This document shows, piece by piece, positions 1,217 through 27,429 of a DNA stretch of 27,661 nt; the stretch's first letter is position 1, and the number at the start of each line of letters is the position of its first letter. Location: the IMG/VR virus record IMGVR_UViG_3300010373_000940, positions 1 to 27,661 of that record, one strand, 5' to 3'. A program made the position numbers and the translations under genes. The notes under the pieces are model-generated. The model worked only from the letters and a program-made list of their open reading frames with translations, was not told the DNA's origin and ran no database searches. Source of the DNA: a virus.

Positions 1217-1672
1217 TCAGAGATTGAACCTCCGGTTCGTGAACGCCCACTTCGCAAGGCCGACCGCATCCATGCCATTGTGGCGGATGGACTCGGTTAG
1301 CGCAAGCATCGCTTTAGTGACAACGGTCTGTTCTCGCGCACTTAGAATCGACCACACGCGCGGATGGTGGATCTCCTTGGGCAGGGTGCCCTTCCACTCC
1401 CGAGGTTCGACCAGTAGGACGTTTGCGACTCCGAGATGCTTGAGGACGCCGACGTACGTGCCGACCTGGACCGCGAGAGTGATGAGATCATTCGGGTCCC
1501 CCTTCGAGTTACGCGCGGGGTAGACCTTCGGCTTCTCGATGATGGCGGCACGCGGAAGGACGAAGTCGGGACGATAGATCGGGTGCCCGACGGAACAGGC
1601 CGTCACTTCGCCCCGTTCGTCAACGGTGCACCAGCCGGTATCTCGTCCGGGATCGATGGCTAGGAACGTCAC
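1217..1672 (-). CDS. RuvC-like Holliday junction resolvase
   Basis: 151 residues from a GTG at 1670-1672. The RNase H-fold pattern of RuvC is clear: strand 1 with Asp7 in FLAIDPGRDTGW, Glu46 in AAIIEKPKVY, a WKGTLPKEIHHPRV segment typical of phage RuvC-like enzymes, and C-terminal Asp135 in HNGMDAVGLAKWA. These are the expected acidic metal ligands of an endonuclease that cleaves four-way junctions, needed to debranch DNA before packaging. The length is normal for the family. It is a single-gene unit behind its own leaderless promoter. Two endonuclease VII-like genes elsewhere in the window may overlap with it in function. Confidence 0.82.
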   Translation of the reverse strand: MTFLAIDPGRDTGWCTVDERGEVTACSVGHPIYRPDFVLPRAAIIEKPKVYPARNSKGDPNDLITLAVQVGTYVGVLKHLGVANVLLVEPREWKGTLPKEIHHPRVWSILSAREQTVVTKAMLALTESIRHNGMDAVGLAKWAFTNRRFNL

Positions 1673-1683
1673 CGATCAGAGTA
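1670..1683 (-). promoter_or_regulatory. Leaderless promoter element TACTCT-gatcg-GTG
   Basis: Minus strand: TACTCT, five bases, then the GTG start codon of the RuvC-like gene. It fits the strict consensus TANNCTGATNNGTG. Upstream lies CACATACCGAC, sharing a CAC(A/G)T element eight bases before the -10 with the promoters at 6399 and 12337. There is no room for a Shine-Dalgarno site if transcription starts at the GTG. Confidence 0.6.
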
Positions 1684-1702
1684 GTCGGTATGTGCGAAGG
1701 CC

Positions 1703-2305
1703 CTAGTGGACCTTCGGACTGTTCTCTCCGGCCTCGAGCTTCGCGGCGAGATCCTCGGCAGCGCGAAGCTCCTCGAGCGTGAGGCCCGACAGGTCCGCCA
1801 CCTTCGCGTGGTTCTCCGTCGACTCACCGCGAATCAGCCGGTCGCCCTTGATCACGAGGTCGACGAGACGTGCGAGGTCGGACAGCTTCGCGTCGCTGAT
1901 CTCGATTGTGCGCGCGTCCTTCAGCTTCCGCTCGACGTGGATGGCGACGAGCTCGCGCAGGTCTCGCAGTACCGCCATGTGCTCGGCGGCGATCTCGCGG
2001 GCCTCCTGCTTGATGAACGACTCCACCTCGCGGTCGCGGACACGCTGCCAGTGGGTGTCGTACGCCTCCACGCGCTCGTGCCAGCGCCACTCGTTCGACA
2101 GATCACAGATCGACTGCGTGTGTCCAACGCCCGGGCGAATCAGCCGACGGGGCCGGGGCGCGTCGAGGAAGTCCTTGAACTTCAGGTACGCGGCCTCGGG
2201 CTCACCGGGCTGGCGGTGCCACGGCGGAACGTACGTGCCCGGGACGGGCTCCTGGCGGGCCTCCGCGGGAGGGGGCGGTACGAGAGGGGTAATTCGGTCG
2301 GCCAC
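1703..2305 (-). CDS. Putative terminase small subunit-like DNA-packaging protein
   Basis: 200 residues from a GTG at 2303-2305. After a Pro-rich N-terminus, residues 38-95 contain EAAYLKFKDFLDAP, then a region ending in NEWRWHERVEAYDTHWQRVRD. The 'W.W..R..AYD.HW...R' signature recurs in phage proteins encoded beside terminase and portal genes and interpreted as small-terminase-like. The remainder is charged helix with likely coiled-coil character. It lies upstream of the portal gene on the opposite strand; terL is about 4 kb away. The packaging role is inferred from signature and context, and a generic HTH-like phage protein is the alternative. Confidence 0.5.
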   Translation of the reverse strand: MADRITPLVPPPPAEARQEPVPGTYVPPWHRQPGEPEAAYLKFKDFLDAPRPRRLIRPGVGHTQSICDLSNEWRWHERVEAYDTHWQRVRDREVESFIKQEAREIAAEHMAVLRDLRELVAIHVERKLKDARTIEISDAKLSDLARLVDLVIKGDRLIRGESTENHAKVADLSGLTLEELRAAEDLAAKLEAGENSPKVH

Positions 2306-2316
2306 GGATCAGCGTA
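2303..2316 (-). promoter_or_regulatory. Leaderless promoter element TACGCT-gatcc-GTG
   Basis: Minus strand: TACGCT, gatcc, then the GTG start codon of the small-terminase-like gene. Strict match to TANNCTGATNNGTG. Confidence 0.6.
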
Positions 2317-2332
2317 GCGAATTACGTCGGCG

Positions 2333-2581
2333 TTATTCGTCGTCCGGCATCCGCGCGGGCTTCCCCTTCGACAGCGCGGGGTGCTGGTCCTTGTGGGTCT
2401 TGCCGGCGCAGACATTGTAGACGGTCCCGAGCGACAGCCCGAGCTCGGTGGCGATCGCTTGAAGCGTCCACTTCTTCGACGGCTCCTTCGGGTCGCCGGC
2501 GCCGTCGTAGGCGTCCCTAAGCTCGTGGATCTTGGCGACGCCGGCTTCACGCAGCCGGCCCGCAGATGTCTTGTACTCCAT
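2333..2581 (-). CDS. Small helix-turn-helix protein
   Basis: 82 residues from an ATG at 2579-2581. Residues 38-62 (KWTLQAIATELGLSLGTVYN) form a clear helix-turn-helix of the resolvase/Hin or homeodomain-like type, followed by a basic tail. No catalytic domain is attached, so it is either a small regulator or a DNA-recognition subunit, for example for packaging. Its start lies 70 bases from the divergent portal gene start, so the intergenic strip could be a control region for both. No Shine-Dalgarno site is seen; the ATG sits five bases after a -10-like TAAGCT. Confidence 0.65.
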   Translation of the reverse strand: MEYKTSAGRLREAGVAKIHELRDAYDGAGDPKEPSKKWTLQAIATELGLSLGTVYNVCAGKTHKDQHPALSKGKPARMPDDE

Positions 2582-2592
2582 GCAATAGCTTA
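2579..2592 (-). promoter_or_regulatory. Leaderless promoter element (variant) TAAGCT-attgc-ATG
   Basis: Minus strand: TAAGCT, five bases, then ATG. Same -10 (identical to that of terL) and same spacing as the strict class, but the GAT is replaced and the start is ATG. ACGTTCC lies directly upstream, as at the terL and 12337 promoters. Confidence 0.5.
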
Positions 2593-2639
2593 GGAACGTA
2601 GTAGCCCTAACCCGATAATCGATTAGGAGGTCGAACGCC

Positions 2640-2653
2640 TACACTGATCCGTG
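2640..2653 (+). promoter_or_regulatory. Leaderless promoter element TACACT-gatcc-GTG (portal)
   Basis: Plus strand: TACACT, gatcc, then the GTG start codon of the portal gene. Strict match to the consensus. It is divergent from the variant promoter of the small HTH gene. Confidence 0.6.
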
Positions 2654-4132
2654 AAGCTCCAATACGAGCCCGATCCGTTTCCGCCGCATCGCCATGAGGA
2701 CGGCTGGCAGAACCCGATAACGGGTGTCGGTACATGGGATCGCGATAAGGCGCAACACGTCGAGTTCCGGACGCCGGAATACTCGCTCACGATGGACTTC
2801 GCGCGTCTGTCGTCGATGTACCACTACGACCCGCTGTCCCGGAAGATCGTCGACGCCTGGCCGAAGCACATGTTCCGGCGTGGCTGGGACCTCGAGATCG
2901 TCGGCGAGAAGAAGACGAGCCAGACGTACGCCGCGATCGCCAAGGACGTGAAGCGCATCGCGCTCGTCCCCAAGATGCGCAAAGCCGCCAGCCTCGGGCG
3001 CAACTACGGCGGCTCGCTGATGATCCTAGGCGCGAAGGACGGACGCCCGCTGGACCAGCCCCTCGACGAGGCGAACATCCGCTCTGTCGACTACATCAAC
3101 GTGCAGGACCGCCGCTACATCCAGGTGGTTGCGTACTACACGGACCCGAAGCTGCCAAAGCTCGGAGAGCCCGCCGTGTACCGCGTCTTCTCGGGACCGA
3201 CCACGGGCATGCCGAGCGTCGGCGCTCCGCCCGTCGAGTCGGCCGCGCTGTTCGACGTGCACGAGTCCCGCGTGATCCGTTTCGACGGCGCGGAGACGGA
3301 CGACGTCGAGCGTCTGCGCCTCGGTGGCTGGTCTCACTCGGTGCTGCAGGCGCCGTACGAAGAGATCAAGCGCTTCATGCAGAGCTTCCAGAACGCGGGG
3401 CATCTGCTGAACGACGCGAGCCAGGGCGTCTACAAGCTGAAGGGGCTGATGCAGCAGCTCGCCAGCAAGCAGGGGCGGGCGAACCTGAACGCGCGCATGG
3501 CGATGATGGACATGGCGCGCAGCGTGGCGCGGTCCCTCCTCCTCGACGCGGACGGTGAGGAGTTCTCGCGCGTCGTCACGTCGTTCACGTCGGTTCCCGA
3601 GCTCCTCGATCGCTTCATGCAGATGCTCTCGATGGTGACGGGCATCCCGGTGACGATCCTCATGGGCCGGTCGGCGGCCGGCATGAACGCCACGGGCGAC
3701 TCCGACTTCCGCGCGTTCTACGACGAGGTGCAGAGCGCGCAGGTTGACGAGCTCGAGCCGAAGCTGCTCCGCGCGTACCACGTGCTGCTCCTCGCGAAGA
3801 GCGGGCCGACGAAGGGGAAAGACCTCGACATCGGCTTCAACTTCCGCCCGCTCTGGGTCCCGACCGACGTCGAGAAGGCGGACGCGAACCTGAAGCAGGC
3901 GCAGGCCGACGCGATCTACCTCGATCGCGAGGTCTTCTCCCCGGAGGAGTGCGCGATCAACCGCTTCCGCGACGGCCGCCCGAACTTCACGACGACCATC
4001 GACCTCGACGCGCGCGAGGAAGCGATGGAGCAGGGCGTGAGCTTCGACGCGCACCCGAACGACCCCGAGGAGACGCCGGAGGACGGAACCGATGCGGCGA
4101 ACGCCGGCGAAAACGACTCGGCCAAGTCCTGA
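2651..4132 (+). CDS. Phage portal protein (DUF1073-type)
   Basis: 493 residues from a GTG at 2651. The sequence reads as a DUF1073-type portal: an N-terminal block with the paired DPLSRKIVDAWPKHMFRRGW, a middle WSHSVLQAPYEEIKRFMQSF followed by a 'DASQGVYKLKGL' segment, and a long helical region with VTGIPVTILMGRSAAGMNAT, the characteristic 'G.P...L.G.S..G.NATG' motif near residues 334-353. The C-terminus is acidic. The portal forms the dodecameric ring at the capsid vertex through which terminase pumps DNA. The next gene, for head morphogenesis, overlaps by 41 bases, the usual order in phages. Length is typical. Confidence 0.88.
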   Translation: MKLQYEPDPFPPHRHEDGWQNPITGVGTWDRDKAQHVEFRTPEYSLTMDFARLSSMYHYDPLSRKIVDAWPKHMFRRGWDLEIVGEKKTSQTYAAIAKDVKRIALVPKMRKAASLGRNYGGSLMILGAKDGRPLDQPLDEANIRSVDYINVQDRRYIQVVAYYTDPKLPKLGEPAVYRVFSGPTTGMPSVGAPPVESAALFDVHESRVIRFDGAETDDVERLRLGGWSHSVLQAPYEEIKRFMQSFQNAGHLLNDASQGVYKLKGLMQQLASKQGRANLNARMAMMDMARSVARSLLLDADGEEFSRVVTSFTSVPELLDRFMQMLSMVTGIPVTILMGRSAAGMNATGDSDFRAFYDEVQSAQVDELEPKLLRAYHVLLLAKSGPTKGKDLDIGFNFRPLWVPTDVEKADANLKQAQADAIYLDREVFSPEECAINRFRDGRPNFTTTIDLDAREEAMEQGVSFDAHPNDPEETPEDGTDAANAGENDSAKS

Positions 4133-4859
4133 GCTTCGGACGCGGCTCGAGGCCGCTTCGCTCGCGGGCTCGCACACGTACGTCGCCGAACTGCGCGCGC
4201 TCATGCGGGCGTTACACAAGGCGGTGCTCGCCGACCTCCGTCCCTTCATCGCGCTGTACGCCGGACGCCGGCAGGACGGCGGGATCTCGGACCTTGCCAC
4301 GCGCGTAGGACACTTCATCGCGCAGGTCCCGGGCAAGGTGGCTCGCTTCTTCCGCAAGATGGCGGCGACGCTGGTGCAGGCGAATCGCGCGGTCATGTCC
4401 GAGATCCTGGGCAGGCCGCCGGCGGCCCCTTCACCCGGCGTGCTCGAGGCCGCGGAGCGGGAGAGCGTCCGGCTCGTGAAGCTGGCCGCGGAGCGATACG
4501 GGGACCAGATTCGCTCGACGCTGGCGGCCGGCGGGACGATGACACCCGAGGATCTCGAGGCCGCGCTGGCGAAACGGGGCGAGGTCTCGGAATCGCAGGC
4601 GGCCCTCATCGCGCGCGACCAGACTGTGAAGCTCAACGCGCAGCTCACGCGCGACGCGCAGCAGGCCGCCGGATACGAGCGCTATTGGTGGTTGACTTGC
4701 AGGGACGACCGGGTCCGACCGACGCACGAAGCGAACGAGTCGATCATCTTCGCGTGGTCGAACCCGTCTCCCATCACGGGACACCCGGGGCACGATCCGC
4801 TCTGCCGCTGCAACCCGATTCCGTACGACGGCCCGCTGGCGCCCGGCGAGAGGGTCTAG
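4092..4859 (+). CDS. Phage head morphogenesis / minor capsid protein (SPP1 gp7 / Mu F-like)
   Basis: 255 residues; the start at 4092 overlaps the portal gene end. The C-terminal half holds the family hallmark: LIARDQTVKLNAQLTRDAQQ, YWWLTCRDDRVRPTHE, then GHDPLCRCNPIPY, with a Cys-x-Cys in the R.T.H..CRC pattern of SPP1 gp7/Mu F minor head proteins. The N-terminal half is helical. Such proteins are internal minor capsid components associated with the portal during prohead assembly. It is the last gene of the portal unit and ends 16 bases before a convergent operon; I see no strong hairpin there. Confidence 0.82.
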   Translation: MRRTPAKTTRPSPELRTRLEAASLAGSHTYVAELRALMRALHKAVLADLRPFIALYAGRRQDGGISDLATRVGHFIAQVPGKVARFFRKMAATLVQANRAVMSEILGRPPAAPSPGVLEAAERESVRLVKLAAERYGDQIRSTLAAGGTMTPEDLEAALAKRGEVSESQAALIARDQTVKLNAQLTRDAQQAAGYERYWWLTCRDDRVRPTHEANESIIFAWSNPSPITGHPGHDPLCRCNPIPYDGPLAPGERV

Positions 4860-4875
4860 GACTCGTCGACACCCC

Positions 4876-5532: not shown

Positions 5533-5554
5533 CTTCTAATCTCCTTCTTCTCTT

Positions 5555-6252: not shown

Positions 6253-6401
6253 CACTCCGCCCCTTTCCGGAGAATGACGATGAGGTCCGCGCGACGATCG
6301 ATGAGCTTCTGCTCGTCGTGTCCGAGGTCCGCCGGATAGCTGGCCTTCTTGGGGTTGGCGATCCAGGAATCGGGTGACGGAGCGTTGGGGTTGGTTTTCA
6401 C
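6252..6401 (-). CDS. Small leaderless protein, 49 residues, unknown function
   Basis: Begins at the GTG at 6399-6401 directly behind a strict leaderless promoter element and ends with TGA at 6252-6254. The product starts VKTNPNAPSPDSWIANPKKA and continues with a charged helix (DEQKLIDRRADLIVILRKG). Its reality rests on the promoter, on GC-rich codon use like its neighbours, and on the coupled TGATG junction with the next gene. It is the first of four genes in the operon. No family is recognised; an adaptor or leader role is possible. Confidence 0.55.
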   Translation of the reverse strand: MKTNPNAPSPDSWIANPKKASYPADLGHDEQKLIDRRADLIVILRKGAE

Positions 6402-6412
6402 TAATCAGTGTA
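6399..6412 (-). promoter_or_regulatory. Leaderless promoter element TACACT-gatta-GTG
   Basis: Minus strand: TACACT, gatta, then the GTG of the 49-residue gene. Strict match. Upstream, TTTTACACATAGCCAC closely parallels TTTTTACACGTTCCAAC at the 12337 promoter, with CAC eight bases before the -10 in both. Confidence 0.62.
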
Positions 6413-6450
6413 GTGGCTATGTGTAAAAGCCCAACTCGATCGGTCCGACC

Positions 6451-8076
6451 TCAGAGCACACGCGACATGCCGAAGAGCATGAGCAGCCCCTCCTCGGCGT
6501 CCTTCACGTCCTCCGGCGAGGCGGCCGACTGCTCACACTGGTCCGGGACGATGGCGCCGGCGAACTTCCGCATCGCCTCGGCGAACGCGCGGAATTGGCG
6601 AACGAGGTAGATGATGGCCTGCGAGCAGGCGTCGACCCGGTCGTCGTTCTCGCCGAACGGGAAGCTGGTGAGCTCGTTGCGGTGATCGATGACCCACGGG
6701 TTGAACAGCGGGTCGGGGTGGTAGACGTGCCCCGCGTGGAAGTCGCCGGTCACCGCGTTCGCGCGCGCCGTCTTGCCGCCCTCCGGGTTCACTTCCTCGA
6801 TGCCGGGGATCTCCTCCTTCAGCACCTTGATGACGGCGGGGCCGTTCGCCTTGTCCTCGATGAGGACCTTCCCCCGCGACGCCGGCCAGCGGTCGCACAT
6901 GTTCCGGATTGCCTGGCACGTCGAGGGGAAGTCCATGCGCGCGTGCACCTCGTCGAGCAGGAAGAAGTCCCCGCCCTTGCGTGCCCAGACCTGCCCGCAC
7001 ACGTAGTCGCTGCCGTCCGTGTCCTTGAACGCGCAGTCCCAGGACTGGATGACTTCGTCGAACGTCTCCGGGAGCGCCATCCACTGCCCGCTACCGCCGT
7101 ACGCTACCTCGGACTCGATGTGCTGGTCGTCGTTCTGCCCGGGCCGGACCCAGGTCCGGAACCAGACCTTCTGGAACGTCGCGCCGCCCTCGGGCGCCGG
7201 CCGCTGCTGCAATTGCGACGCGGTGCCCGACGGACCCAGCTGGCGCTCGAGGTCCCGGACCTCCGACTCGGGGAAGCGCGCCGGCCAGAGCAGCTGTCCG
7301 GCCTCGGTGCGAGGGTCCTTGAACCCGAGCGGCGTGATCGAGACGGCCTTGGGCTCGTACCGCATCGGGATGCGGAGCACGACGTAGCCGTCCTTCTCTG
7401 AGTACCCGGCGAGGTCCTTCTCGTGAAGACGCTGCATCACTAGCACCGCGCGCGTCGTGGCGGGATCGCGCTTGCGCGTCTGCAGCGTGCCGTACCACCA
7501 CTTCCGCGACTCCTCGAGCGTGACCTTGGAGATCGTCTGCGGCTTGTGCGGGTCGTCGATCAGCCAGTAGTCGTAGTGCCACCCGGTGGCGTCGCCCTTC
7601 GGCGTGGTGCTGGCGAACCGGAGCCCGTTCCCCGTCGTCCAGTATTCGCCCATGGCGGGCGCGCGGTCCTTGATGATGACCCGGTCGCCCCAGCGAGCTC
7701 GGAACCACTCAGACCTGATCAGGTCGAGCGAGTCGCCGGCTTCGCGCAATACGAGGTCCAGGTCGAACGACCACGAGCCCCAGCGCGAGTAGCCGCCGTC
7801 CCGGACCCACGCCCACACGGGCCAGAACAGGCCGGTGAGTCGGGACTTCATGCAACCCGGCGGGATGTTGATCACGAGCCGCTTGATCTGCAAGTTCGTG
7901 ACGGCCTCGAGATGCTCGGAGACCGCGCCGATGTGCCAGTTGTCCTGGAACGGCTTGCCGGGCTCCGCAATGGGCCAAGCCATCTTCACGAAGTCGCGCA
8001 GGCCGCCGCGGAGCCCAAGCTCGCGCTGCAGGTCGACGGAACGGTCGACGAGCTTCTGCGCTTTTCGTGCTGCCAC
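6451..8076 (-). CDS. terL: Terminase large subunit
   Basis: 541 residues from the GTG at 8074-8076. The ATPase domain has a Walker A-like NIPPGCMKSR (residues 70-79) and Walker B WLIDDPHK (171-178). The C-terminal RNase H-like nuclease domain has Asp347 in QSWDCAFKDTDGSD, Glu408-Asp409 in VLIEDKANGP, and Asp478/479/482 in NDDRVDACSQA. This is the complete motor and nuclease of phage DNA packaging, docking on the portal. Residue Cys in the P-loop (PPGCMKS rather than PPGTGKS or PPRHGKS) is seen in some phage terminases. It is a single-gene unit with its own leaderless promoter, oriented opposite to the portal gene. Confidence 0.92.
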   Translation of the reverse strand: MAARKAQKLVDRSVDLQRELGLRGGLRDFVKMAWPIAEPGKPFQDNWHIGAVSEHLEAVTNLQIKRLVINIPPGCMKSRLTGLFWPVWAWVRDGGYSRWGSWSFDLDLVLREAGDSLDLIRSEWFRARWGDRVIIKDRAPAMGEYWTTGNGLRFASTTPKGDATGWHYDYWLIDDPHKPQTISKVTLEESRKWWYGTLQTRKRDPATTRAVLVMQRLHEKDLAGYSEKDGYVVLRIPMRYEPKAVSITPLGFKDPRTEAGQLLWPARFPESEVRDLERQLGPSGTASQLQQRPAPEGGATFQKVWFRTWVRPGQNDDQHIESEVAYGGSGQWMALPETFDEVIQSWDCAFKDTDGSDYVCGQVWARKGGDFFLLDEVHARMDFPSTCQAIRNMCDRWPASRGKVLIEDKANGPAVIKVLKEEIPGIEEVNPEGGKTARANAVTGDFHAGHVYHPDPLFNPWVIDHRNELTSFPFGENDDRVDACSQAIIYLVRQFRAFAEAMRKFAGAIVPDQCEQSAASPEDVKDAEEGLLMLFGMSRVL

Positions 8077-8087
8077 TAATCAGCTTA
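8074..8087 (-). promoter_or_regulatory. Leaderless promoter element TAAGCT-gatta-GTG (terL)
   Basis: Minus strand: TAAGCT, gatta, then the GTG start of terL. Strict match. CACGTTCCAC lies immediately upstream, with CAC seven bases before the -10. Confidence 0.62.
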
Positions 8088-8097
8088 GTGGAACGTG

Positions 8098-8433: not shown

Positions 8434-8636
8434 GGCTCGCGCTCCACGCAGACCTCTTCGTCCCCGTAGCCGTACATGGGCCGCATCTTGTGGTCCCACG
8501 CCACGATGGTGAAGACGTGGTGCTTCGTCTCGTAGCGCTCGCACGGGTGCTCGATGTCCTCGCACGTCACCGCTCCGACCACGAGCGCCGCGAACGTCAC
8601 GACGAGGAAGAGGATGAACTTCTCGGTGCTGCTCAT
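8430..8636 (-). CDS. Small membrane-anchored or exported protein
   Basis: 68 residues from an ATG that overlaps the sigma-factor stop as ATGA. Residues 7-24 (FILFLVVTFAALVVGAVT) form one hydrophobic segment, a signal anchor or signal peptide. The remaining 44 residues contain three cysteines and are polar, so they would lie outside the cytoplasmic membrane. The cysteine after the hydrophobic segment is not in a good lipobox. Function unknown; its position directly after the sigma factor could mean an anti-sigma or envelope role, but nothing in the sequence shows this. Confidence 0.58.
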   Translation of the reverse strand: MSSTEKFILFLVVTFAALVVGAVTCEDIEHPCERYETKHHVFTIVAWDHKMRPMYGYGDEEVCVEREP

Positions 8637-9424
8637 CCCTGTACCCGCGCGCGGAGCTTCTCGAGTGCCGATAGACGCGCCTGCCGGACCATCTCTTCGC
8701 TGATGTCGAGGGCGGCGCAGACCTGCTTGTACGAGAGCTGCTCGATGAAGAGCGCGTCGATGACGAACGCCTCGCGCTCGTCCAGGTCGACCATCCCGTC
8801 GGCAATCAGCGCGGCGAGCTCCGCGTTGCGGAACTGCATCTCGGGGTCCGGCTTACGGTCGGGCAGCGCCTCGTGCAGGCCGATCGGTCCGGAGGAGCCC
8901 GCCGACGAAAACGTGATACCCGCCGAGCGCGCGATCACGTTCGGGTTCAGCGGCTCGTCAATCGACGCAACGATCACCGGCGCGTTGTTCCACTCGTCGA
9001 GCTGCGCCTGCGTGATCCCGAGCTCCTCGGCCGTCGCATCACGCCCGGTGCGCGCGCGGATCTCCTCCTGTTTCTTGTGCACCGTCCACGGCTTGCCGCT
9101 TTGGCGCGGACGATAGATGGGGAGATTGTCCGAGATGCAGTCCTGCACCTCGTGGCGAATCCAGTGGGCCGCGTACGTCGAGAACCTCCCGCGCTCCGGA
9201 ACCCACTTCTTCCACGCGGTGAGCATCCCGATACAGCCGGCCTGCAGGAGGTCCGCCTCCTCGACGTTCACCGGGATCGTGAGGCGCTTCTGAAGCTTCG
9301 CCACGAGCTTGCGAACGAGGTTGTAGTTCTCGCGGATCATCCGATCCTCGATGCGCTTCGCCCGCTTCGCGTCGGACTTCGAGAGCGCATCCTTGTATTC
9401 TGCAAGCAATTCGGGCGTACTCAT
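8633..9424 (-). CDS. Phage-encoded RNA polymerase sigma factor (sigma-70 family)
   Basis: 263 residues from an ATG preceded by a GGGAGG site. Region 2 is clear: EADLLQAGCIGMLTAWKKW, then VPERGRFSTYAAHWIRHEVQ (compare DL.QEG..GL..A...F.P.RG.RFSTYA.WWIR). Region 3 follows (ARTGRDATAEELGITQAQL). Region 4 is at the C-terminus: DLDEREAFVIDALFIEQLSY, then KQVCAALDISEEMVRQ and ALEKLR, a typical -35-binding helix-turn-helix. Region 1 is absent. Region 2.4 (HWIRHEVQDC) differs from the housekeeping WWIRQAITR, suggesting altered -10 specificity. It would redirect host RNA polymerase, plausibly to the TANNCTGAT promoters in this window. Confidence 0.85.
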   Translation of the reverse strand: MSTPELLAEYKDALSKSDAKRAKRIEDRMIRENYNLVRKLVAKLQKRLTIPVNVEEADLLQAGCIGMLTAWKKWVPERGRFSTYAAHWIRHEVQDCISDNLPIYRPRQSGKPWTVHKKQEEIRARTGRDATAEELGITQAQLDEWNNAPVIVASIDEPLNPNVIARSAGITFSSAGSSGPIGLHEALPDRKPDPEMQFRNAELAALIADGMVDLDEREAFVIDALFIEQLSYKQVCAALDISEEMVRQARLSALEKLRARVQG

Positions 9425-12353: not shown

Positions 12354-12354
12354 T

Positions 12355-12377
12355 AAAAACCCCACCAGTTAGGTGGG
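12355..12377 (-). terminator. Intrinsic terminator after the DNA polymerase gene
   Basis: Minus strand: stem CCCACC, loop TAACT, stem GGTGGG, then G and a run of five T. It begins three bases after the polymerase stop codon and ends the long replication operon. Confidence 0.8.
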
Positions 12378-12380
12378 AGA

Positions 12381-19789: not shown

Positions 19790-21339
19790 CGCCCGAGCCC
19801 CATCACGGTCACGGCCGCCTTCGCCATCAGCGCCGACTTGCACGCCGCGCCTTCCGGGGTCCTGGAGTCCAGGACGATGTCCCCGTACGTGCCCTCGTCC
19901 ACGTACTTCACGACGAGCGCGGACAGGACGCCGGGTCCCTGCCCGTAGTCGTGCATGCGGTAGTCGGCCTTGCCCGTCGCCGCCGTGTTCTCCGCCTGCG
20001 CGCGGGCGACGAGCTTCTCCAACGTGGTCGCCTGGCGACCGATGGGGAAGCAGTCGACGTAGAGCGTGAAGCCCGACTCCGTCTCGGCCTTCGGCGTGTT
20101 CGCGGTATTGGGCGAGCTCGCATCCGTGCGACCGGTCTCCGCCGCGCTTGCGTCGTACGTGATGATCTCGTCCTTGGGCTTGTTCTTCGAGCCCTTCGGG
20201 CGACCTCGGCCCTTCTTCTCCTCGGTCTCGGGGGCCGGCGCGTCGGCCGTCTGTCCGGCGAGCACCGCGGCGGCCTCCGCCTGGGTCGTCGGTGCGGAGG
20301 ATTGCTCCGGCGGGTTGATTGGCTGGTCGGAGACGGGCAGCGTCGACGCCTTCGGCGCGCGCAGCGGATCGACCGGGGTCTGCGCCGGGTCCGCCCACGC
20401 CGGGAGCTTCGGCTCCTCGGGGGCGGGCGTCGGAGCGGGCTCCGCCGGCTTCGCGCCCATCAGGCGCCCCAAGAGTCCGCCGGCGGGCGCGGGAGCGGGC
20501 TCGGCGTTCTGCGTCCCGAGGCGGGAAAGGAGCGAGGTCGTCTTCTGGTCGGCGTTGCTCATTGCGCGGATCGTCTCCTCCGGCGACAGGTTGCACTGCG
20601 CCGTGAACGGGCAGCCTCCGAACATCCCACACGCCCGAGGATTGGGCGGAAGTTCGAGCGGCTGCTGCTTTCCAATGAGTGTAGTAACAATCTCCTGAGC
20701 ACCCTTTTCGATTAGTGGGAACATGTAATCCACGTGTTCCCGACTCACCTCCTGCAGCACGGGTAGGGACTTCCGCGTCTTGCGCGTCTGGAAGTACGTC
20801 CACTGCAGGCGGACCTTCGGCGCGTCGGGCCACCGTAGGAGAGCGCTCTTCGCGTACAGGATCGCCTGCGTGTCCTCGAGCAGATCCTCCGGCGTCTTCG
20901 CCCACTTCACGTCGCCCGTCGTCTTGTGGTCGAGCACGTCCGGGATGCCGTCCTCGCCCGGCGCCTTCAGCACGTCGATGAAGCCTCGGTACCAGATGCC
21001 CGTCGCCGGGGACTGGAACTTGAAGTGCTGCTCGATCTCGAGCCCCGGCGCCCCTGGCTTCGGTAGATGGTGCAGGCCGCTCGCCGCGATGTTCCCCGCC
21101 TCCGAGTCCGCCACGAAGTCCGGCATCTCCCCGGTCTTCAAGTAGCGCTCGAGTTGAGCGTGCACCTTCACGCCAAGTGCCGCAGACTTGTGCGCTTCCG
21201 GCCGTAGCTTGGCAACGTACTTCCACGCCCACTTCCGCTGGCACTCGTGCCACACGTTGAGCTGGCTCGCGCTCATAATGCGCGGGTCATCTTCTCCCGC
21301 CGCTCGATTCGTCTCCGGGGCGGTGGGGGGCTGTTGCAC
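19786..21339 (-). CDS. PD-(D/E)XK nuclease (Cas4/AddB-like, Fe-S type) with AT-hook and unknown C-terminal domain
   Basis: 517 residues from the GTG at 21337-21339. The nuclease core spans about residues 20-250: SASQLNVWHECQRKWAWKY, His60, GFIDV (Asp122), LDHKT (Asp137, Lys139) and a Q-x-x-x-Y motif (DTQAILYAK). Four cysteines, one at 33 and three near 237, 243 and 249 (CGMFGGCPFTAQC), match the iron-sulfur cluster layout of Cas4 and AddB. A Pro/Ala-rich linker follows, then an AT-hook, KKGRGRPKGSKNK (375-387), and a C-terminal domain (about 410-517) that I do not recognise. It probably processes DNA ends for recombination or replication. First gene of the longest operon. Confidence 0.83.
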   Translation of the reverse strand: MQQPPTAPETNRAAGEDDPRIMSASQLNVWHECQRKWAWKYVAKLRPEAHKSAALGVKVHAQLERYLKTGEMPDFVADSEAGNIAASGLHHLPKPGAPGLEIEQHFKFQSPATGIWYRGFIDVLKAPGEDGIPDVLDHKTTGDVKWAKTPEDLLEDTQAILYAKSALLRWPDAPKVRLQWTYFQTRKTRKSLPVLQEVSREHVDYMFPLIEKGAQEIVTTLIGKQQPLELPPNPRACGMFGGCPFTAQCNLSPEETIRAMSNADQKTTSLLSRLGTQNAEPAPAPAGGLLGRLMGAKPAEPAPTPAPEEPKLPAWADPAQTPVDPLRAPKASTLPVSDQPINPPEQSSAPTTQAEAAAVLAGQTADAPAPETEEKKGRGRPKGSKNKPKDEIITYDASAAETGRTDASSPNTANTPKAETESGFTLYVDCFPIGRQATTLEKLVARAQAENTAATGKADYRMHDYGQGPGVLSALVVKYVDEGTYGDIVLDSRTPEGAACKSALMAKAAVTVMGLGR

Positions 21340-21350
21340 TAATCAGGTTA
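21337..21350 (-). promoter_or_regulatory. Leaderless promoter element TAACCT-gatta-GTG (replication operon)
   Basis: Minus strand: TAACCT, gatta, then the GTG start of the nuclease gene. Strict match. It is back to back with a second strict element on the plus strand 29 bases away, so the two operons are divergent and may be co-regulated. Confidence 0.62.
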
Positions 21351-21378
21351 GTCGATTCCAGATACCTCGTAGGTCGCC

Positions 21379-21392
21379 TACGCTGATCCGTG
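21379..21392 (+). promoter_or_regulatory. Leaderless promoter element TACGCT-gatcc-GTG
   Basis: Plus strand: TACGCT, gatcc, then the GTG start of the endonuclease VII-like gene. Strict match. The intervening 28 bases contain CCTCGTAGG and overlapping short inverted repeats. Confidence 0.62.
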
Positions 21393-21815: not shown

Positions 21816-23995
21816 GTCTCGACTTCGACCGTCTCGCGGTCTTCCCCCTGTATGGAGTGGGAGAAGACGGGCGGTGTGGGTGCGGTGCGATCGACTGCAA
21901 GGCAGCCGGTAAGCACCCCCTCATGCCATACGCACAACTCGGCATTGCGGAGAAGTGGAGCGGGGGAGAGGACTCGAGCTTCGGGATCGCCACGGGCCAT
22001 CGCAGCGGCGTGTTCGTCGTCGACGTCGACGTGCGCGACGATCGCAACGGGCTCGAGGCGCTCGCCGCCATGGGCGAGTTCCCCGAGACGTACACGGTTC
22101 GCACACCGACGGGCGGGTACCACTTCTACTTCGCGCTGCCCGACTTCCCGGTGAAGACGTCGGGGAATCAGGTCGCGCCCGGCGTCGACATCCGAGGGGA
22201 AGGCGGCTTCGTCGTCGCGCCCGGCATGCCGCACAAGAACGGGGGCACCTACGAAGAGGTCGTCGACGTTCCGCCGGCGGCCGCACCCGCGTGGCTCCTC
22301 GAGCTCCCGTGCCTGCGCGGCTCGGTGCGCAACGTGTCCGAAGGTCCGCAGTCGCCCAACGCGCCGATTCCGATCGCGCCCGAGGACCCGGACTACGGCC
22401 GGAGAGTCGTGCTCGGGCGCGAGCACTGCGAGACCGCGCCGCCGGCGGTGGAGGGCGACGGCGGGAGCGTGGCGCTGCTCCGAGTGTGCATCTACCTCGT
22501 ACGTAGATTGGAGCTTCCAATTGCCGTAGCTCGGCAGTTGGTCGCAGAGGTTTACAACCCCCGCTGCTCGCCGGAGTGGAGCGACTTCGAGATCGACCAC
22601 AAGCTTGAATCGGCGCGCGACTCGTCGGAGATCATGCCCGGCATCGCGCCACCGACATGGAACGAGATGGTGGAGCGCGCCGCGGCGCCTCGTGCCATGC
22701 GTGAGGTCGGTGGGTCCGCCGGCGGCCGACGCACGCGCTCGGACACGCACGTCTATACGTACACGGCGGCGGAGAGCCCTGCGGCCTCCGAGGTCCGCAA
22801 GCTCCCGCCGGCCGAGGTCGCGTTCATCCTCGCATCGAACGCGGAATGGACGGGCGTCCTGCAGTACGATCTCTTCCGCCGTCGCGTGTGGGCCGTCGAT
22901 CCGCCACTGAAGCTCGATTGCGAGACGCTCACCGGGCTCACGAAGGAAGACGTCGTCGACATCCAGTATTGGCTATGCTCGAACGGCGTTGCGGCCTCGA
23001 AGGAGGTCGTCCTCGACGCGATCATCGCCGCGTCCCGACGCAACGCCTACCACCCCGTGAAGGAATACCTCGAGACCTGCCGCGCGCGCCGGGTGCCGGG
23101 GATTTTAGACCAGGCCGCCACCGTTCTCTTCGGCGTGCAGTCCCCAATCGCGAACCTGTTCCTGCGCCGGACGCTGATCGCCGCCGTTCGACGCATCTAC
23201 TCCCCGGGGACCCAGGTCGACACGATGCTCGTCCTTCACGGCGCGCAAGGCGCTCGGAAGAGCACGTTCGTGCGCGAGCTGTTCGGCCGCGAGTTCATCC
23301 GCTCCCAGATGCCGAGCCTGGACACGAAGGATGCCTCGAACGCGCTCCGCGGATATTGGGGTATCGAACTCGCCGAGCTGGATCGCATCGCGCGCGCGGA
23401 AAACGCCACGGTGAAGGAGTTCCTCACTCGAGTGGACGACGACTACCGCAAGGTCTTCGGCATCGACGAGAACAAGTACCCGCGCGAGTGCGTGTTCGTC
23501 GGCACGACCAACGAGAACGACTTCCTTCGGGACTCGACAGGGAATCGGCGCTACTGGCCCATCGCCGTCGAGAAGGTCGACCTCGAGTGGCTGCTCGCGA
23601 ACCGCGACGCGATCTGGGGCGAGGCCCTGCACCTGGCGGAGGCGGGCGAGCCACACTGGATGGATCGCGTCGAGGAAGAGCACGCCGAGGCGGCGCGCGA
23701 TCCGTTCGTCGTTCACGACCCGTGGCACGACGACATCCGCGACTTCCTCCGGGGACGCAAGCGCGTGAAGGCGACCGAGGTTTACGAATACGCCATCGCG
23801 CGCGGTACGACCGACAAGACCAAGTATGGGCGCGCCGAGCAGCTCCGGGTCACGGACACGCTCCGCCGACTTGGGTGTGAGCAGAAGAAGTCCAACGGAG
23901 AGCGCGTGTGGACGGTCCCTGCCGAGCTGGCGGAGTCGGCGCCGGTCGATCCCGCCAAGCGATTCGCAGAGGCATTATCCGCGCGCACGAACTGA
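21812..23995 (+). CDS. Bifunctional primase-polymerase / VirE-type helicase
   Basis: 727 residues from the ATG at 21812 (ATGA overlap). The N-terminal prim-pol (archaeo-eukaryotic primase) domain has CGCGAIDCKAAGKHP, GIATGHRSGVFVVDVDVRDD (Asp71, Asp73), GGYHFYF (His104) and GVDIRGEGGFVVAPG (Asp126). After a linker, residues 390-700 form a virulence-associated E-type ATPase: Walker A LHGAQGARKST (about 475-486), Walker B WGIELAELDR, an arginine-bearing TRVDDDYRKVFG, and a sensor FVGTTNENDFLRDSTGNRR. The C-terminus is a winged helix. It would prime and unwind DNA at the phage origin. A strong terminator follows 22 bases later. Confidence 0.9.
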   Translation: MSLDFDRLAVFPLYGVGEDGRCGCGAIDCKAAGKHPLMPYAQLGIAEKWSGGEDSSFGIATGHRSGVFVVDVDVRDDRNGLEALAAMGEFPETYTVRTPTGGYHFYFALPDFPVKTSGNQVAPGVDIRGEGGFVVAPGMPHKNGGTYEEVVDVPPAAAPAWLLELPCLRGSVRNVSEGPQSPNAPIPIAPEDPDYGRRVVLGREHCETAPPAVEGDGGSVALLRVCIYLVRRLELPIAVARQLVAEVYNPRCSPEWSDFEIDHKLESARDSSEIMPGIAPPTWNEMVERAAAPRAMREVGGSAGGRRTRSDTHVYTYTAAESPAASEVRKLPPAEVAFILASNAEWTGVLQYDLFRRRVWAVDPPLKLDCETLTGLTKEDVVDIQYWLCSNGVAASKEVVLDAIIAASRRNAYHPVKEYLETCRARRVPGILDQAATVLFGVQSPIANLFLRRTLIAAVRRIYSPGTQVDTMLVLHGAQGARKSTFVRELFGREFIRSQMPSLDTKDASNALRGYWGIELAELDRIARAENATVKEFLTRVDDDYRKVFGIDENKYPRECVFVGTTNENDFLRDSTGNRRYWPIAVEKVDLEWLLANRDAIWGEALHLAEAGEPHWMDRVEEEHAEAARDPFVVHDPWHDDIRDFLRGRKRVKATEVYEYAIARGTTDKTKYGRAEQLRVTDTLRRLGCEQKKSNGERVWTVPAELAESAPVDPAKRFAEALSARTN

Positions 23996-24051: not shown

Positions 24052-24294
24052 GTGCCCTGAAGGGGCGGTTCGGGGTGTCATCGGTCCCTGAGAGAAAAGC
24101 CAATGATTTCGCAAGATAGGCACGAGACAGGGACAGAGGGACAGAGATAGATAATGGGTATGATTGGTAGCGGTGGGGGAGGGGTGCCCGGCGGTGGGGA
24201 CGAATCTCCCGGTATACGGAGGGACTGTCCCTCCTGTCCCTCCGTCCCTGTTTGACATGTAGGTAGGAGCACATCCCGGTCACTACGCTGATCG
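24052..24294. other. Non-coding intergenic region upstream of capsid operon
   Basis: No gene is supported on either strand. It contains a G-rich strip (24170-24200) with several GGGG runs, and the GGGACAG/GTCCCTCC inverted-repeat cluster described separately. At its end lies the leaderless promoter of the protease/scaffold gene. A TTGACA at 24252-24257 has no matching -10 at 16-18 bases. Confidence 0.6.
24127..24254. repeat. Iteron-like direct and inverted repeats (GGGACAG / GTCCCTCC)
   Basis: Two tandem AGGGACAG copies at 24129-24144 face a run of GTCCCTCC (24227-24234, 24236-24243) and GTCCCTG (24244-24250) with a nine-base period. ACGGAGGGAC (24216-24225) and GTCCCTCCGT (24236-24245) form a perfect ten-base inverted repeat with a ten-base spacer, and GGAGGGAC-T-GTCCCTCC is a nested palindrome. 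The two halves of the region could also pair over about 16 bases with one bulge. It may be a replication origin, protein-binding array or mRNA leader structure. Confidence 0.6.
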
Positions 24295-24297
24295 GTG
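24284..24297 (+). promoter_or_regulatory. Leaderless promoter element TACGCT-gatcg-GTG (capsid operon)
   Basis: Plus strand: TACGCT, gatcg, then the GTG of the protease/scaffold gene. Strict match. CACAT lies 11 bases before the -10. Confidence 0.62.
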
Positions 24298-25410
24298 AGC
24301 GAGATTCTGAAGAAGCAGCGGCGACTGGACATCCAGACCGCGCCCGTCGACATGAAGCTGCAGCGCACGCCCCAGGGTGGCCTGATGGCGCGCGCGACAC
24401 CGACCCGGTGCGGGGTGCTCGAGTACACGTACCCGGGCGGCAAGAAGGTCCGCGAGCTCCGACATCCCGACGAGGTGTTCCGCTCGGACAGCCTCGAGTC
24501 GCTGCGTGGCGCTCCCATCACGGTCGGACACCCCAACGTCCCCGTCGACGCCGCGAACTGGCAGACCCTGGCGAAGGGGCACGTCGGCGATGACGTCCAC
24601 CAGGACGGGAAGTTCGTCGCGGCGAAGGTCCGCATCCAAGATGCGGCGACCGTCGAACGCTGCATCGACGCGACCCGGCCCGATCGTCTGGTGGAGATGT
24701 CGTGCGGCTACGACGCGGACGTCGAGTTCACGCCCGGCGTCTGGCAGGGAGAGCGCTACGACGCCGTCCAGCGGAACATTCGATACAACCACGTGGCGCT
24801 CGGACCTCGTAATTGGGGCCGTGCGGGCAACGAGGTGGGTCTCCGTCTGGATGCACAAGAGGGAAGTGAGGATATCACTCCCTACACTTATCTTGTGAAT
24901 CACATCGATCAAGCCGACCCGGCGGCGCCGGTCACCGTTCTGGACGCGAAGGACTTCGTGTCGAAGGCGGACCACGAGAAGGCGTTGGGCGTGAAGGAGT
25001 CCAAGATCGCCGAGCTCGAGGCGAAGCTCGCATCGCAGACGAAGCGCGCGGACAGCGCGGAAGCGCAGATCGCCCCGGCGGCTCTCGACGTGCTCGTCGC
25101 TGAGCGACAGTCGATCGTCGACACGGCCCGCTCGGTCATCGGCAAGGAGTTCAAGGCCGACGGCAAGAGCGCGCACGCGATTCGTCTCGAGGTCGTGACG
25201 AAGGCACGCCCGTCAATGAAGTTTGACGGCAAGTCCGAGGCGTACGTCGCCGGCGTGTTCGAGACGCTCGCGGCTTCGGAAGCGGCGGCGACCGCGTCGC
25301 ACGAGAAGGTGTCGACCGCGAAGACCGATTCGACCAGCGCCGACAAGGTCGGCACCGCGTTCGACGGGATGATCAAGGACCTCCACGGCCAGTTTCAGGA
25401 GAACAAGTAA
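24295..25410 (+). CDS. Prohead protease (DUF2213-type) fused to scaffold
   Basis: 371 residues from a GTG behind a strict promoter. Residues 20-190 match DUF2213: GGLMARATPTRCGVLEY, VRELRHPDEVFRSDSLESLR, GAPITVGHP, then KGHVGDDVHQDGKFVAAKV, VEMSCGYDADVEFTPG and NIRYNHVALGPRNWGRAG. The His/Ser blocks (GHP, MSCGY, NHVAL) are the expected protease positions. From about residue 215 the chain is a charged coiled coil (KADHEKALGVKESKIAELEA) and then an Ala/Ser-rich tail, as in internal scaffolds. It cleaves and shapes the prohead before DNA packaging. The stop overlaps the next start as TAATG. Confidence 0.85.
   Translation: MSEILKKQRRLDIQTAPVDMKLQRTPQGGLMARATPTRCGVLEYTYPGGKKVRELRHPDEVFRSDSLESLRGAPITVGHPNVPVDAANWQTLAKGHVGDDVHQDGKFVAAKVRIQDAATVERCIDATRPDRLVEMSCGYDADVEFTPGVWQGERYDAVQRNIRYNHVALGPRNWGRAGNEVGLRLDAQEGSEDITPYTYLVNHIDQADPAAPVTVLDAKDFVSKADHEKALGVKESKIAELEAKLASQTKRADSAEAQIAPAALDVLVAERQSIVDTARSVIGKEFKADGKSAHAIRLEVVTKARPSMKFDGKSEAYVAGVFETLAASEAAATASHEKVSTAKTDSTSADKVGTAFDGMIKDLHGQFQENK
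24883..24897 (+). promoter_or_regulatory. Candidate internal leaderless promoter for a free scaffold protein
   Basis: TACACT (24883-24888), six bases, then GTG at 24895-24897, which is codon 201 in frame. It stands in a local AT-richer patch with codons unlike the rest of the gene. The product would start VNHIDQADPAAPVTVLDAKD and contain only the scaffold coiled coil. It lacks the GAT of the strict class and has a six-base spacer. Confidence 0.35.
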
Positions 25411-25940: not shown

Positions 25941-25966
25941 TTCTCAGGAGACGGAGACACAATCAC

Positions 25967-27013
25967 ATGAAGAGGGTTTTCCGCGCCGACGCGATTCAGG
26001 CGCTCGTCAATCAGGGGCACCTCGACGCAGGCGAGGGCATCGTCTTCGCTCGCGAGCTCGAGAACATCGAGGCGCAGGTCTACGAGATCAAGTACCCGGA
26101 CCTGAAGGGGCGCTCGATGCTCCCGGCGTTCGGCGGCCTCTCGCCCACGGACGAGACGTGGACCTGGCGCATCATGGACAAGCAGCTCGCCGAGGCGGAC
26201 GAGGCCGAGCTCACGACCGACGAGATCCCGACGGTCGACGTCCTCATGGCGGAGACCCACTCAGGCTTCGTCGACATCGTTCAGGGCTACGGCTACACGA
26301 TCGACGAGATCCAGAAGTCGCAGCGCCTCGGGCGCCCGCTGGACCTCACGCGCGCGACGCTGGCGCGTGAAGCGGTCGAGCGCAAGTTCGACTCGATGAT
26401 CGCGCTCGGCTCGAAGAACGCTTCGCTCAACGGGCTGTACGGGTTGCTGAACCAGCCGCTCGACACGGCGTCTGGCTTCGTGCACTCGGTGAGCGTGGCG
26501 AGCGGAGACCTCACGGCGGGCGCGTCGGGCACGGGGACCGTGTGGGACCCGAACGCGGCGTCGAACGCCTGCACGGTCAAGGAGATCGTTCGGCAGCTGA
26601 ACCAGGCGTTCGCGTACGTCACGGTGGGGACGAACATGATCCACCGCCCGGATACGCTGGTCCTCGACACGAAGACCTACACGGCCTGGGAGACCACGCC
26701 GGCGAGCCTCGCGGACGCGAACTACTCGGCGTCGGACAAGAGCCTGCTCGATTACATCAAGGGCCAGTGCAAGTGGCTCAAGAACATCGACTGGTGGCTC
26801 AAGTGCAACACGGCGGGCCCCTCGAGCAAGGCGCGCGCGGTCCTGTACGAGAAGAAGCAGGAGAACGGGTGCTACGGCATCTCGCGCGAGTTCACGCAGA
26901 TGCCGGTGCAGGTCAAGAACTTCAAGTTCTGGATTCCCTGCTTCGGCAAGTGCGGCGGCGTGAAGATCCGCTACCCCAAGTCGATGGTCTACATCGATGG
27001 CATCCAGCCCTGA
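25967..27013 (+). CDS. Major capsid protein (DUF2184-like)
   Basis: 348 residues from the ATG at 25967; CAGGAGACGGAG lies upstream at suitable spacing. A longer frame upstream is shadow. It opens MKRVFRADAIQALVNQGHLD and contains LENIEAQVYEIKYPDLKGRS, ETWTWRIMDKQLAEADEAEL, FVDIVQGYGYTIDEIQKSQR, GRPLDLTRATLAREAVERKF and NGLYGLLNQP, the sequence order of DUF2184-type phage capsid proteins with the HK97-like fold. The C-terminus has GVKIRYPKSMVYIDGI. It forms the icosahedral shell; 29 of its residues at 26750-26960 include unusual Trp and Cys density. An intrinsic terminator follows. Confidence 0.83.
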   Translation: MKRVFRADAIQALVNQGHLDAGEGIVFARELENIEAQVYEIKYPDLKGRSMLPAFGGLSPTDETWTWRIMDKQLAEADEAELTTDEIPTVDVLMAETHSGFVDIVQGYGYTIDEIQKSQRLGRPLDLTRATLAREAVERKFDSMIALGSKNASLNGLYGLLNQPLDTASGFVHSVSVASGDLTAGASGTGTVWDPNAASNACTVKEIVRQLNQAFAYVTVGTNMIHRPDTLVLDTKTYTAWETTPASLADANYSASDKSLLDYIKGQCKWLKNIDWWLKCNTAGPSSKARAVLYEKKQENGCYGISREFTQMPVQVKNFKFWIPCFGKCGGVKIRYPKSMVYIDGIQP

Positions 27014-27037
27014 TAGCTGAGACAGGGTGACGGGCTG

Positions 27038-27069
27038 AAGCCCCTGGTCGGAAACGGCCGGGGGCTTTT
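27038..27069 (+). terminator. Intrinsic terminator after the major capsid gene
   Basis: Stem AAGCCCC (27038-27044) with GGGGCTT (27061-27067), inner GGTC/GGCC pairing around GGAAAC, then T-rich end. Reading the other strand it would also serve the convergent nuclease gene that ends at 27071. Confidence 0.78.
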
Positions 27070-27070
27070 G

Positions 27071-27418
27071 CTATTGGGGAGGGGTGGTCACCATGCCACC
27101 CTCCTTTTCGAGGTAGGTGGCGCATGCGCGCAGACGCGCCGGCGAATCGCCCGAGTGTCCGAGCGTGAGGTTGCACGCCTGGCACACCCAGCCGCGGAAC
27201 GCGCCGGACTTGGCATCATGGTCGCGATGAGGGGTGGTCATAGGATCCGCGCACACGGCGCACGCGCGTCCCACGTTCTCATTCCGTTCGTGTTGGGAGC
27301 GAGTGCTCTGCTTCACCCAGGAGCGCATGCAGACCACACATCGCCTCGTTGCCGCATATCGGGTCGTGTTGTTGCACCGCTTGCACGGCGCTGCTTCATA
27401 GGTCTCGTATTGCTTCAC
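27071..27418 (-). CDS. Endonuclease VII-like nuclease (copy 2)
   Basis: 115 residues from the GTG at 27416-27418 behind a strict leaderless promoter. It has an N-terminal zinc ribbon (CKRCNN, then CVVC), a basic linker, and the endonuclease VII core: CAVCADPM, HRDHDAKSGAFRGWVC with D-H-x-A in place of the usual D-H-x-H, then QACNLTLGHSGDSPARLRA. It parallels the 21390 gene in domain order but shares little exact sequence, so the two are diverged paralogues or independent arrivals. It ends convergently against the capsid terminator. Confidence 0.78.
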   Translation of the reverse strand: MKQYETYEAAPCKRCNNTTRYAATRRCVVCMRSWVKQSTRSQHERNENVGRACAVCADPMTTPHRDHDAKSGAFRGWVCQACNLTLGHSGDSPARLRACATYLEKEGGMVTTPPQ

Positions 27419-27429
27419 TAATCAGCATA
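27416..27429 (-). promoter_or_regulatory. Leaderless promoter element TATGCT-gatta-GTG
   Basis: Minus strand: TATGCT, gatta, then the GTG of the second endonuclease VII-like gene. Strict match. Palindromic repeats begin 28 bases upstream. Confidence 0.6.

Follow-up and report, generated by a model that had tools for sequence, protein, structure and literature searches.

Late sigma factors of the T4 gp55 type use promoters that consist of a -10 box only, and T4 late mRNAs have leaders. In the Deinococcus-Thermus group, a TANNNT box can lie a few nucleotides (nt) before an ATG or GTG, and the transcript is taken to have no 5' untranslated region (PMC12340547, PMC3160421). Such boxes adjoin open reading frames (ORFs) in Deinococcus, most often as TACACT (PMC12340547), and leaderless genes have been detected in 207 of 953 genomes (PMC3160421). 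Most middle and late transcripts of Thermus phage phiYS40 lack a leader (PMC3594737), and promoter motifs as well as phage-encoded polymerases have been described for phage P23-45, in which the region with genes 59-77 is assigned to these polymerases (PMC10770324). Among the open-licence papers listed in our literature search, none joined a phage sigma factor with leaderless phage promoters. Here we describe a short element, C-TANNCT-GAT, which directly precedes start codons in a 27,661-base stretch of viral DNA (IMG/VR virus record IMGVR_UViG_3300010373_000940, hereafter the window), and a sigma-70-family factor encoded in the same stretch. Because the record is classed linear, the window may be a fragment. 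We consider it reasonably probable that the element represents a phage-specific leaderless promoter programme, with the phage sigma factor as its probable reader.

The 14-mer TANNCTGATNNGTG has nine matches in the window, three on the plus and six on the minus strand, where 0.05 are expected, and none of 100 shuffled windows reached nine. The GTG of every match opens a reading frame of 49 to 541 amino acids (starts at 1672, 2305, 2651, 6401, 8076, 21339, 21390, 24295 and 27418; Table 1). The nine sites lie exactly where a first-pass annotation had claimed them; the transcription unit at 6401 begins with a 49-amino-acid frame. The -10 part recurs without GAT at two more starts, 2581 (TAAGCT-ATTGC-ATG) and 24895 (TACACT-TATCTT-GTG). 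A TANNNT box ending about 5-7 nt upstream of the start is thereby found at the nine window sites and these two, as well as in two related records described below (G013 and L001). TANNNT-N5 occurred near starts ten times in the window against a control mean of 3.6. This was the only clear excess, G013 and the records L013 and L025 showing a slight excess of TANNNT near starts.

The core CTANNCTGAT occurs ten times in the window (0.12 expected). The tenth copy, at 12334-12343 on the minus strand, has no GTG, the position of the G in the other copies being 12331. It lies 40 nt from an ATG at 12291 that is preceded by a strong Shine-Dalgarno (SD) site (duplex energy -9.5), and a hairpin ending in a T run (12378-12360), immediately beyond the polymerase gene, is located just upstream of it. 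Terminator-like hairpins as such are not enriched, with seven found in 1-14000 and 7.5 expected in shuffles. The earlier claim that TANNCT-GAT occurs only at gene starts therefore does not stand. Its place between a terminator-like hairpin and an SD-led ATG makes it probable that the element is transcriptional and that the GTG lies outside it; the core would function as a promoter without needing a start codon. The tenth copy appears to head the operon containing the sigma gene.

Across the ten copies nine positions never vary: C(-12), T, A, C, T, G, A, T and G(0). At position -2 only C or T occurs. No classical -35 region was recognised: a search of the window for TTGACA/TATAAT promoters gave no hit, and no hexamer was found at a fixed distance upstream, including the 16-18 nt expected of a -35 hexamer. 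An A is present at -35 in seven of ten upstream regions. The upstream CAC(A/G)T element of the first-pass annotation found no support in the counts, since CACAT is present in three of ten regions and the best 5-mer of shuffled regions averages 3.1. Among the ten regions, no 6- or 7-mer rose above shuffles. The 5-mer AGGTC was found in five (shuffle maximum of four in 60 runs), at scattered distances of about 19 to 50 nt; it precedes 1672, 2651, 6401, 8076 and 21390 and is possibly a regulator site.

The motif starts lack SD sites. Duplex energies at the nine starts range from 0.6 to -3.3, compared with -4.1 or stronger at 20 of 26 other positions and -0.5 to -3.5 at the remaining six (the 26 include four non-start codons, and 2581 is among the six weak ones). 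Ten further window genes that we chose gave -6.6 to -10.8 in nine cases and -2.4 in one. The view that internal genes use SD sites is thus broadly borne out. No SD was found at any of 25 motif starts in the window and three relatives, where energies ranged from 2.8 to -4.0.

We propose a phage-specific promoter in which the element supplies a -10 box (C-TANNCT) and a fixed discriminator (GAT), with no classical -35. Initiation would occur at the first purine 5-6 nt downstream, so that the start codon would be the 5' end of the mRNA. At nine or more transcription units, where the element abuts the start codon, the mRNA would begin at the GTG and be translated leaderless, and one copy would drive a conventional leader with an SD site. 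The most likely reader would be the host RNA-polymerase core carrying the phage's own sigma factor, whose gene is linked to that of the large terminase subunit (terL). In relatives with a divergent sigma, the letters would have changed with architecture and several gene positions kept. To prime the system, either another promoter that escaped notice or weak reading by host sigma-A, which could accept TANNCT as a fair -10 box, would be needed. The first-pass reading of these sites as leaderless promoters is well supported by the leadered tenth copy after its hairpin, the lack of SD sites, the fixed spacing and orthologous starts that carry different letters. Its idea that promoter and start codon are one element has to be softened: the core occurs apart from a GTG (the copy at 12342), and although GTG is used at all nine full window sites, the fused starts of relatives are ATG or GTG.

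The proposed reader is encoded at 8633-9424, where the first-pass annotation had recognised a sigma-70-family factor. The product indeed matches Pfam region 2 (PF04542, 4.8e-12) and region 4 (PF04545, 2.9e-09), and among NCBIfam models the sigma-70 superfamily scores best, with FliA/WhiG behind it. Its predicted fold has a mean predicted local distance difference test score (pLDDT) of 71. The 50 PDB matches listed of 308 are described as sigma factors or RNA-polymerase complexes (best E 2.4e-08), with whole-chain template-modelling scores of only about 0.3 among these 50. The positions corresponding to W433, Q437 and T440 of Escherichia coli, which we take to be the residues reading the -10 box, are H, H and Q.

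A search with a terL alignment returned 14 viral loci, L001 again among them, and four genome loci. Region-2 matches are present in seven of 14 records, that is, the window, L001, G009 and G010-G013, of which G010-G013 are one near-identical group; none was detected in G014-G020 or in MW202816, and a region-4 match in G019 is weak and falls below the cut-off. The sigma gene lies upstream of terL in all seven. The two genes are neighbours in G009 and the G013 group; in L001 and the window, small frames or a short gap lie between them. Four sigma-bearing phages could accordingly be compared: the window, L001, G013 and G009. Their region 2.4 stretches differ (FSTYAAHWIRHEVQ, FSTYLAHWVRLESQ, FSTHCWWRVLREMQ and FTRYARLWALREIQ, respectively). 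Region 4 is kept in the window and L001 sigmas, and no region-4 match was found in that of G013, whose single-sequence model was unusable (pLDDT 52). Neither the G013 nor the G009 sigma protein matched anything in the phage collection at E 1e-3.

Each of these phages has a motif of its own that is absent from the other three: C-TANNCT-GATNN-GTG in the window, TAGACT-N6-ATG in L001 (two sites only), C-TAAAAT-N5-RTG in G013 and TGCTTCATT-N6-ATG in G009. Close relatives are few; L001 (9,385 bases) is one, with identities to the window of 61% for portal, 61% for terL, 48% for the small terminase and 38% for sigma. A search with the 14-base motif, which in the window finds matches at starts only, gave no exact match in L001 and five two-mismatch matches (5.2 expected); the divergent small terminase and portal genes of L001 both start with TAGACT-N6-ATG. 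In G013, TAAAATNNNNNRTG is present five times in 20 kilobases (kb) with 0.10 expected. TAAAAT-N5-RTG is found at five starts and TAAAAT-N6-ATG at a sixth, and a C precedes the TA in all six start-adjacent boxes. L012, L013 and L014 match G013 at 96-99% over long stretches and were counted as one phage with it; L012 and L014 contain no TAAAAT, but both match only G013 13567-21973, which is free of its six sites. In G009, TGCTTCATT occurs six times in 33 kb (0.13 expected), always 6-7 nt upstream of an ATG (five N6, one N7), and this box does not fit TANNNT. The G009 and G013 motifs were chosen from the data, and their expected counts are uncorrected. Back-to-back boxes lie between divergent genes in G009 (32761-32794) and G013 (13306-13331 and 1690-1722); those of G009 form the perfect palindrome GAATGAAGCAGCTGCTTCATTC and those of G013 ATTTTAGCTAAAAT, and they may be compact bidirectional promoters.

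Start-anchored patterns of six letters were scanned in each genome (about 1.7 million patterns, or about 10^6.2 tests). An earlier scan with longest-frame gene calls, which gave the window pattern in only four genes, was superseded. TA...TGAT..RTG ranked top in the window (log10 p -17.4), and the best values were -10.9 in G013 and -10.7 in G009, compared with -7.6, -6.9 and -6.6 for window, G013 and G009 in the best of 20 runs each with shuffled upstream regions. The G009 scan gave seven hits, from which 7173 and 23210 were dropped as weak and to which 22824, the N7 site, was added. A start-anchored motif is present in all three sigma-bearing contigs over 20 kb and in none of five long contigs without a detected sigma (G015, 40.0 of 41.9 kb; G016, 20.0 of 23.1 kb; G019; G020; MW202816; Fisher p 0.018). 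The same scan was negative in three shorter records without a detected sigma (L016 of G014, L019 of G017 and L020 of G018). G020 (45 kb) contains CTANNCTGAT twice, neither time followed by NNGTG, and TAAAAT-N5-RTG twice. Apparent gene-internal repeats that mislead such scans are found in G013 (about 21.0-22.0 kb) and L014 (about 0.3-1.3 kb).

Orthologous genes carry the private box of their own phage. The portal gene starts with TACACT-GATCC-GTG in the window, TAGACT-CCGGGT-ATG in L001 and TAAAAT-GTCCC-ATG in G013, and the head protease gene with TACGCT-GATCG-GTG in the window, TAAAAT-TGTTC-GTG in G013 and TGCTTCATT-TGCGTC-ATG in G009. A second, in-frame start is nested in the protease gene at codon 201 (window), 192 (G013) and 191 (G009), aligned within three columns. 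These nested starts sit at the junction to the C-terminal region of the protease, follow their own phage's box or a close variant and lack an SD. Scaffold genes nested in head-protease genes are known from other phages, and we infer that the products of the nested starts are scaffolds. Relatives without a detected sigma have an SD-led ATG (-5.9) at the junction in G015 and a GTG with a moderate SD (-5.4) in MW202816. Between exonuclease and primase, the divergent regions of G009 and the window are alike, and that of G009 contains one-mismatch copies of the motif.

How the window relates to the described systems can now be stated. It resembles the Deinococcus-Thermus genes in the position of the TANNNT box and differs from them in that their boxes are variable and belong to host genes, whereas here C-TANNCT-GAT is invariant phage-wide, a phage sigma is present and a related phage has a box that is not TANNNT. 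With phiYS40 it would share leaderless transcripts in a phage. In the first 50 kb of phiYS40 (DQ997624), 15 of 59 starts have TANNNT-N4-7, with six control patterns giving 3 to 11; unlike the window, these 15 are varied -10 boxes without a fixed discriminator, and the available portion of the phiYS40 paper states no role for a phage sigma (PMC3594737). One phiYS40 start (29085, minus; L039) reads TAAGCTGATATT-ATG, which resembles the window motif in a way that looks like chance. P23-45 likewise has a phage-specific motif next to start codons, compared here by sequence position alone: in 50 kb of EU100883, TTAT.C.T..RTG abuts start codons nine times in the region of genes 59-77, and the control scan gave log10 p -16.2 with the motif in the early region. 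In contrast to the proposed programme, P23-45 uses phage-encoded RNA polymerases and not a sigma on the host core (PMC10770324). Three of its sites (39600, 39974 and 40322, minus; L040) differ from the annotated starts (39675, 40016 and 40367), and the annotation may be wrong. With the T4 gp55 type the window would share a phage sigma and a promoter reduced to the -10 box, and the G013 sigma also has no region-4 match; the window and L001 sigmas differ from that type in retaining region 4. What is new is that a terL-linked phage sigma, a motif private to each phage and shared start positions occur together.

The main rival is that the sites are host-type leaderless promoters, as in Deinococcus or Actinobacteria, that the phage adopted a host sigma-A signal and that the phage sigma serves genes outside the fragment. 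In Deinococcus, leaderless genes are known to be marked by TANNNT about 6-7 bp ahead of the ORF (PMC12340547), and the commonest form of this signal, TACACT, is present at 2651 and 6401. Leaderless genes are frequent in high-GC groups, and host reading would remove the difficulty of a sigma gene placed behind the motif. It would partly explain the window, L001 and G013, but neither the GAT, which like C(-12) is invariant in ten of ten copies and thus more than a host -10 box needs, nor the box of G009, in which the host housekeeping sigma is an unlikely reader because the motif contains no TANNNT. Moreover, motifs are found in the long sigma-bearing relatives and in none of the eight scanned records without a detected sigma. 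Taken together, we regard host reading as rather unlikely.

We also considered a repressor or activator operator overlapping the start codons, a layout like that of phage stoperators. Some copies are near-palindromic (CACTAA-GCTGA-TTAGTG at 8076), and palindromes also arise from the divergent pairs of G009 and G013. Nevertheless, the ten copies showed no dyad symmetry in their conserved positions: only two of six mirror pairs are complementary in all ten, the others in 4, 5, 3 and 1. This asymmetry is evidence against a dyad operator and led us to reject it. A promoter also agrees better with the fixed distance to the start codon, with the missing SD and with a leadered copy located behind a terminator-like hairpin, and an operator is improbable. 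That the element adjoins start codons lacking an SD would equally suit a translation-initiation signal acting in the mRNA. The tenth copy, 40 nt upstream of an SD-led ATG and right after the hairpin, contradicts this, as does a one-mismatch copy in G009 (17204, plus) with a downstream ATG preceded by AGGAG. We rejected a translation signal on account of the leadered copy and consider it very improbable.

Several observations weigh against a phage-specific programme read by the phage sigma. The window sigma gene lies inside an operon with a motif promoter (the copy at 12342) and so would not be supplied with first transcripts from it, unless by weak host-sigma reading or another promoter. The motif is found at replication genes as well as structural ones, which leaves no division into early and late sets. 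Hosts, too, commonly use TANNCT and TAAAAT as -10 boxes. L001 by itself is weak, as 0.26 TANNCT-N6-ATG are expected there and four of 200 shuffles reach two. The scan statistic is heavy-tailed in real genomes (phiYS40 -9.4, S-CBS3 -9.1, L014 -14.7), so that the case for the G009 and G013 motifs is carried mainly by their exact counts and positions. The association of sigma and motif comes from few, related, partly near-duplicate and incomplete contigs. Outside the clade, no convincing start-anchored motif was found in the sigma-bearing records S-CBS3, Vibrio D506 (50 kb) and a Klebsiella record with a sigma annotated as RpoD. At the protease junction, the candidate starts of G020, which has no detected sigma, also lack an SD (-1.8 and -2.2); the contrast is therefore not uniform, and SD absence at nested starts is not confined to sigma-bearing phages. 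Two of the scan patterns were discarded: that of S-CBS3 was taken as a codon artefact, with all seven hits inside annotated genes, and that of L014, with closely spaced hits, as gene-internal repeats.

The sigma link made in the first-pass annotation thus gains from four phages with terL-linked sigmas and four private motifs, one of them outside TANNNT, and loses from the place of the window sigma gene behind a motif promoter, the plausibility of TANNCT as a host sigma-A box and the sigma phages outside the clade in which no such motif was seen. For the broader proposition we regard the chances as evenly balanced: in a clade with a terL-linked sigma, the promoter specificity of this sigma may have diverged together with a private promoter/start-codon element, its -10 box setting transcription and translation starts alike across the genome, with a nested scaffold promoter inside the head-protease gene and with at least one member, G009, having moved outside TANNNT. 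If the phage-sigma programme is real, a phage sigma and an element of 12-15 bases would set both kinds of start, the whole regulon would be readable from DNA alone, and leaderless expression would reach beyond a trait of hosts to a programme possibly encoded by the phage. With four sigmas, four motifs and genes in common, the four phages offer a natural series for following how sigma region 2 specificity and promoter change together, and the element points to starts missed by ordinary gene calling, such as that of the predicted nested scaffold gene.

Table 1. Elements and associated features of the window
Feature	Position	Strand	Context
Fused element CTACTCTGATCG-GTG	1670..1684	minus	opens RuvC-like resolvase gene (1217-1672)
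Fused element CTACGCTGATCC-GTG	2303..2317	minus	opens terminase small subunit gene (1703-2305)
Variant C-TAAGCT-ATTGC-ATG, without GAT, without SD	2579..2593	minus	opens 82-amino-acid frame (2333-2581)
Fused element CTACACTGATCC-GTG	2639..2653	plus	opens portal gene (2651-4132)
Fused element CTACACTGATTA-GTG	6399..6413	minus	49-amino-acid frame, apparent head of transcription unit down to 4876
terL	6451..8076	minus	downstream of sigma gene in all sigma-bearing relatives found
Fused element CTAAGCTGATTA-GTG	8074..8088	minus	opens terL (6451-8076)
Sigma-70-family factor, regions 2 and 4	8633..9424	minus	proposed reader of element
Tenth copy CTAACCTGATTG-G, away from start codon	12331..12343	minus	predicted leadered promoter
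Intrinsic-terminator-like hairpin and T run, 7 pairs	12360..12378	minus	directly upstream of tenth copy
Fused element CTAACCTGATTA-GTG	21337..21351	minus	PD-(D/E)XK exonuclease (19786-21339), head of leftward replication operon
Fused element CTACGCTGATCC-GTG	21378..21392	plus	endonuclease VII-like gene (21390-21815), head of rightward operon
Fused element CTACGCTGATCG-GTG	24283..24297	plus	head maturation protease (24295-25410), head of capsid operon
Nested variant CTACACT-TATCTT-GTG, without GAT	24882..24897	plus	in frame, codon 201 of protease; predicted 171-amino-acid scaffold start
Fused element CTATGCTGATTA-GTG	27416..27430	minus	opens 115-amino-acid gene (27071-27418)

Wider searches added little to the set of relatives. 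Single window proteins (terL, sigma, DNA polymerase and capsid) found nothing in viral_contigs, portal found L001 only, whether as a single sequence or as an alignment, and the portal alignment had no match in genome_contigs. An exact 16-base copy in seven viral_contigs records was taken as chance, because the 14-mer is single in six of them and present twice in the seventh. The search for a host found none. One hit belonged to Gemmatimonadetes, and in 41 genomes of that phylum the motif is sparse: 23 carry it, with 47 sites compared with 17 for the reversed control, an excess, but at about one site per genome.

Some neighbouring features of the window deserve mention. A small gene at 848-1171 (minus) has a carph-isopro domain match below the cut-off, and TAAGTT-N6 precedes its ATG, perhaps as a further leaderless start. 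The 6401 transcription unit ends with a ParB/Noc-like protein (4876-5532, minus) that scores below the cut-offs of these families. At the right end (27484-27657), about three copies of the 17-base unit ACAAGCATGCTTTTTCC with the palindrome AAGCATGCTT are followed by an array of about 21 AGTGG pentamers, and this repeat region is possibly a terminal or assembly feature.

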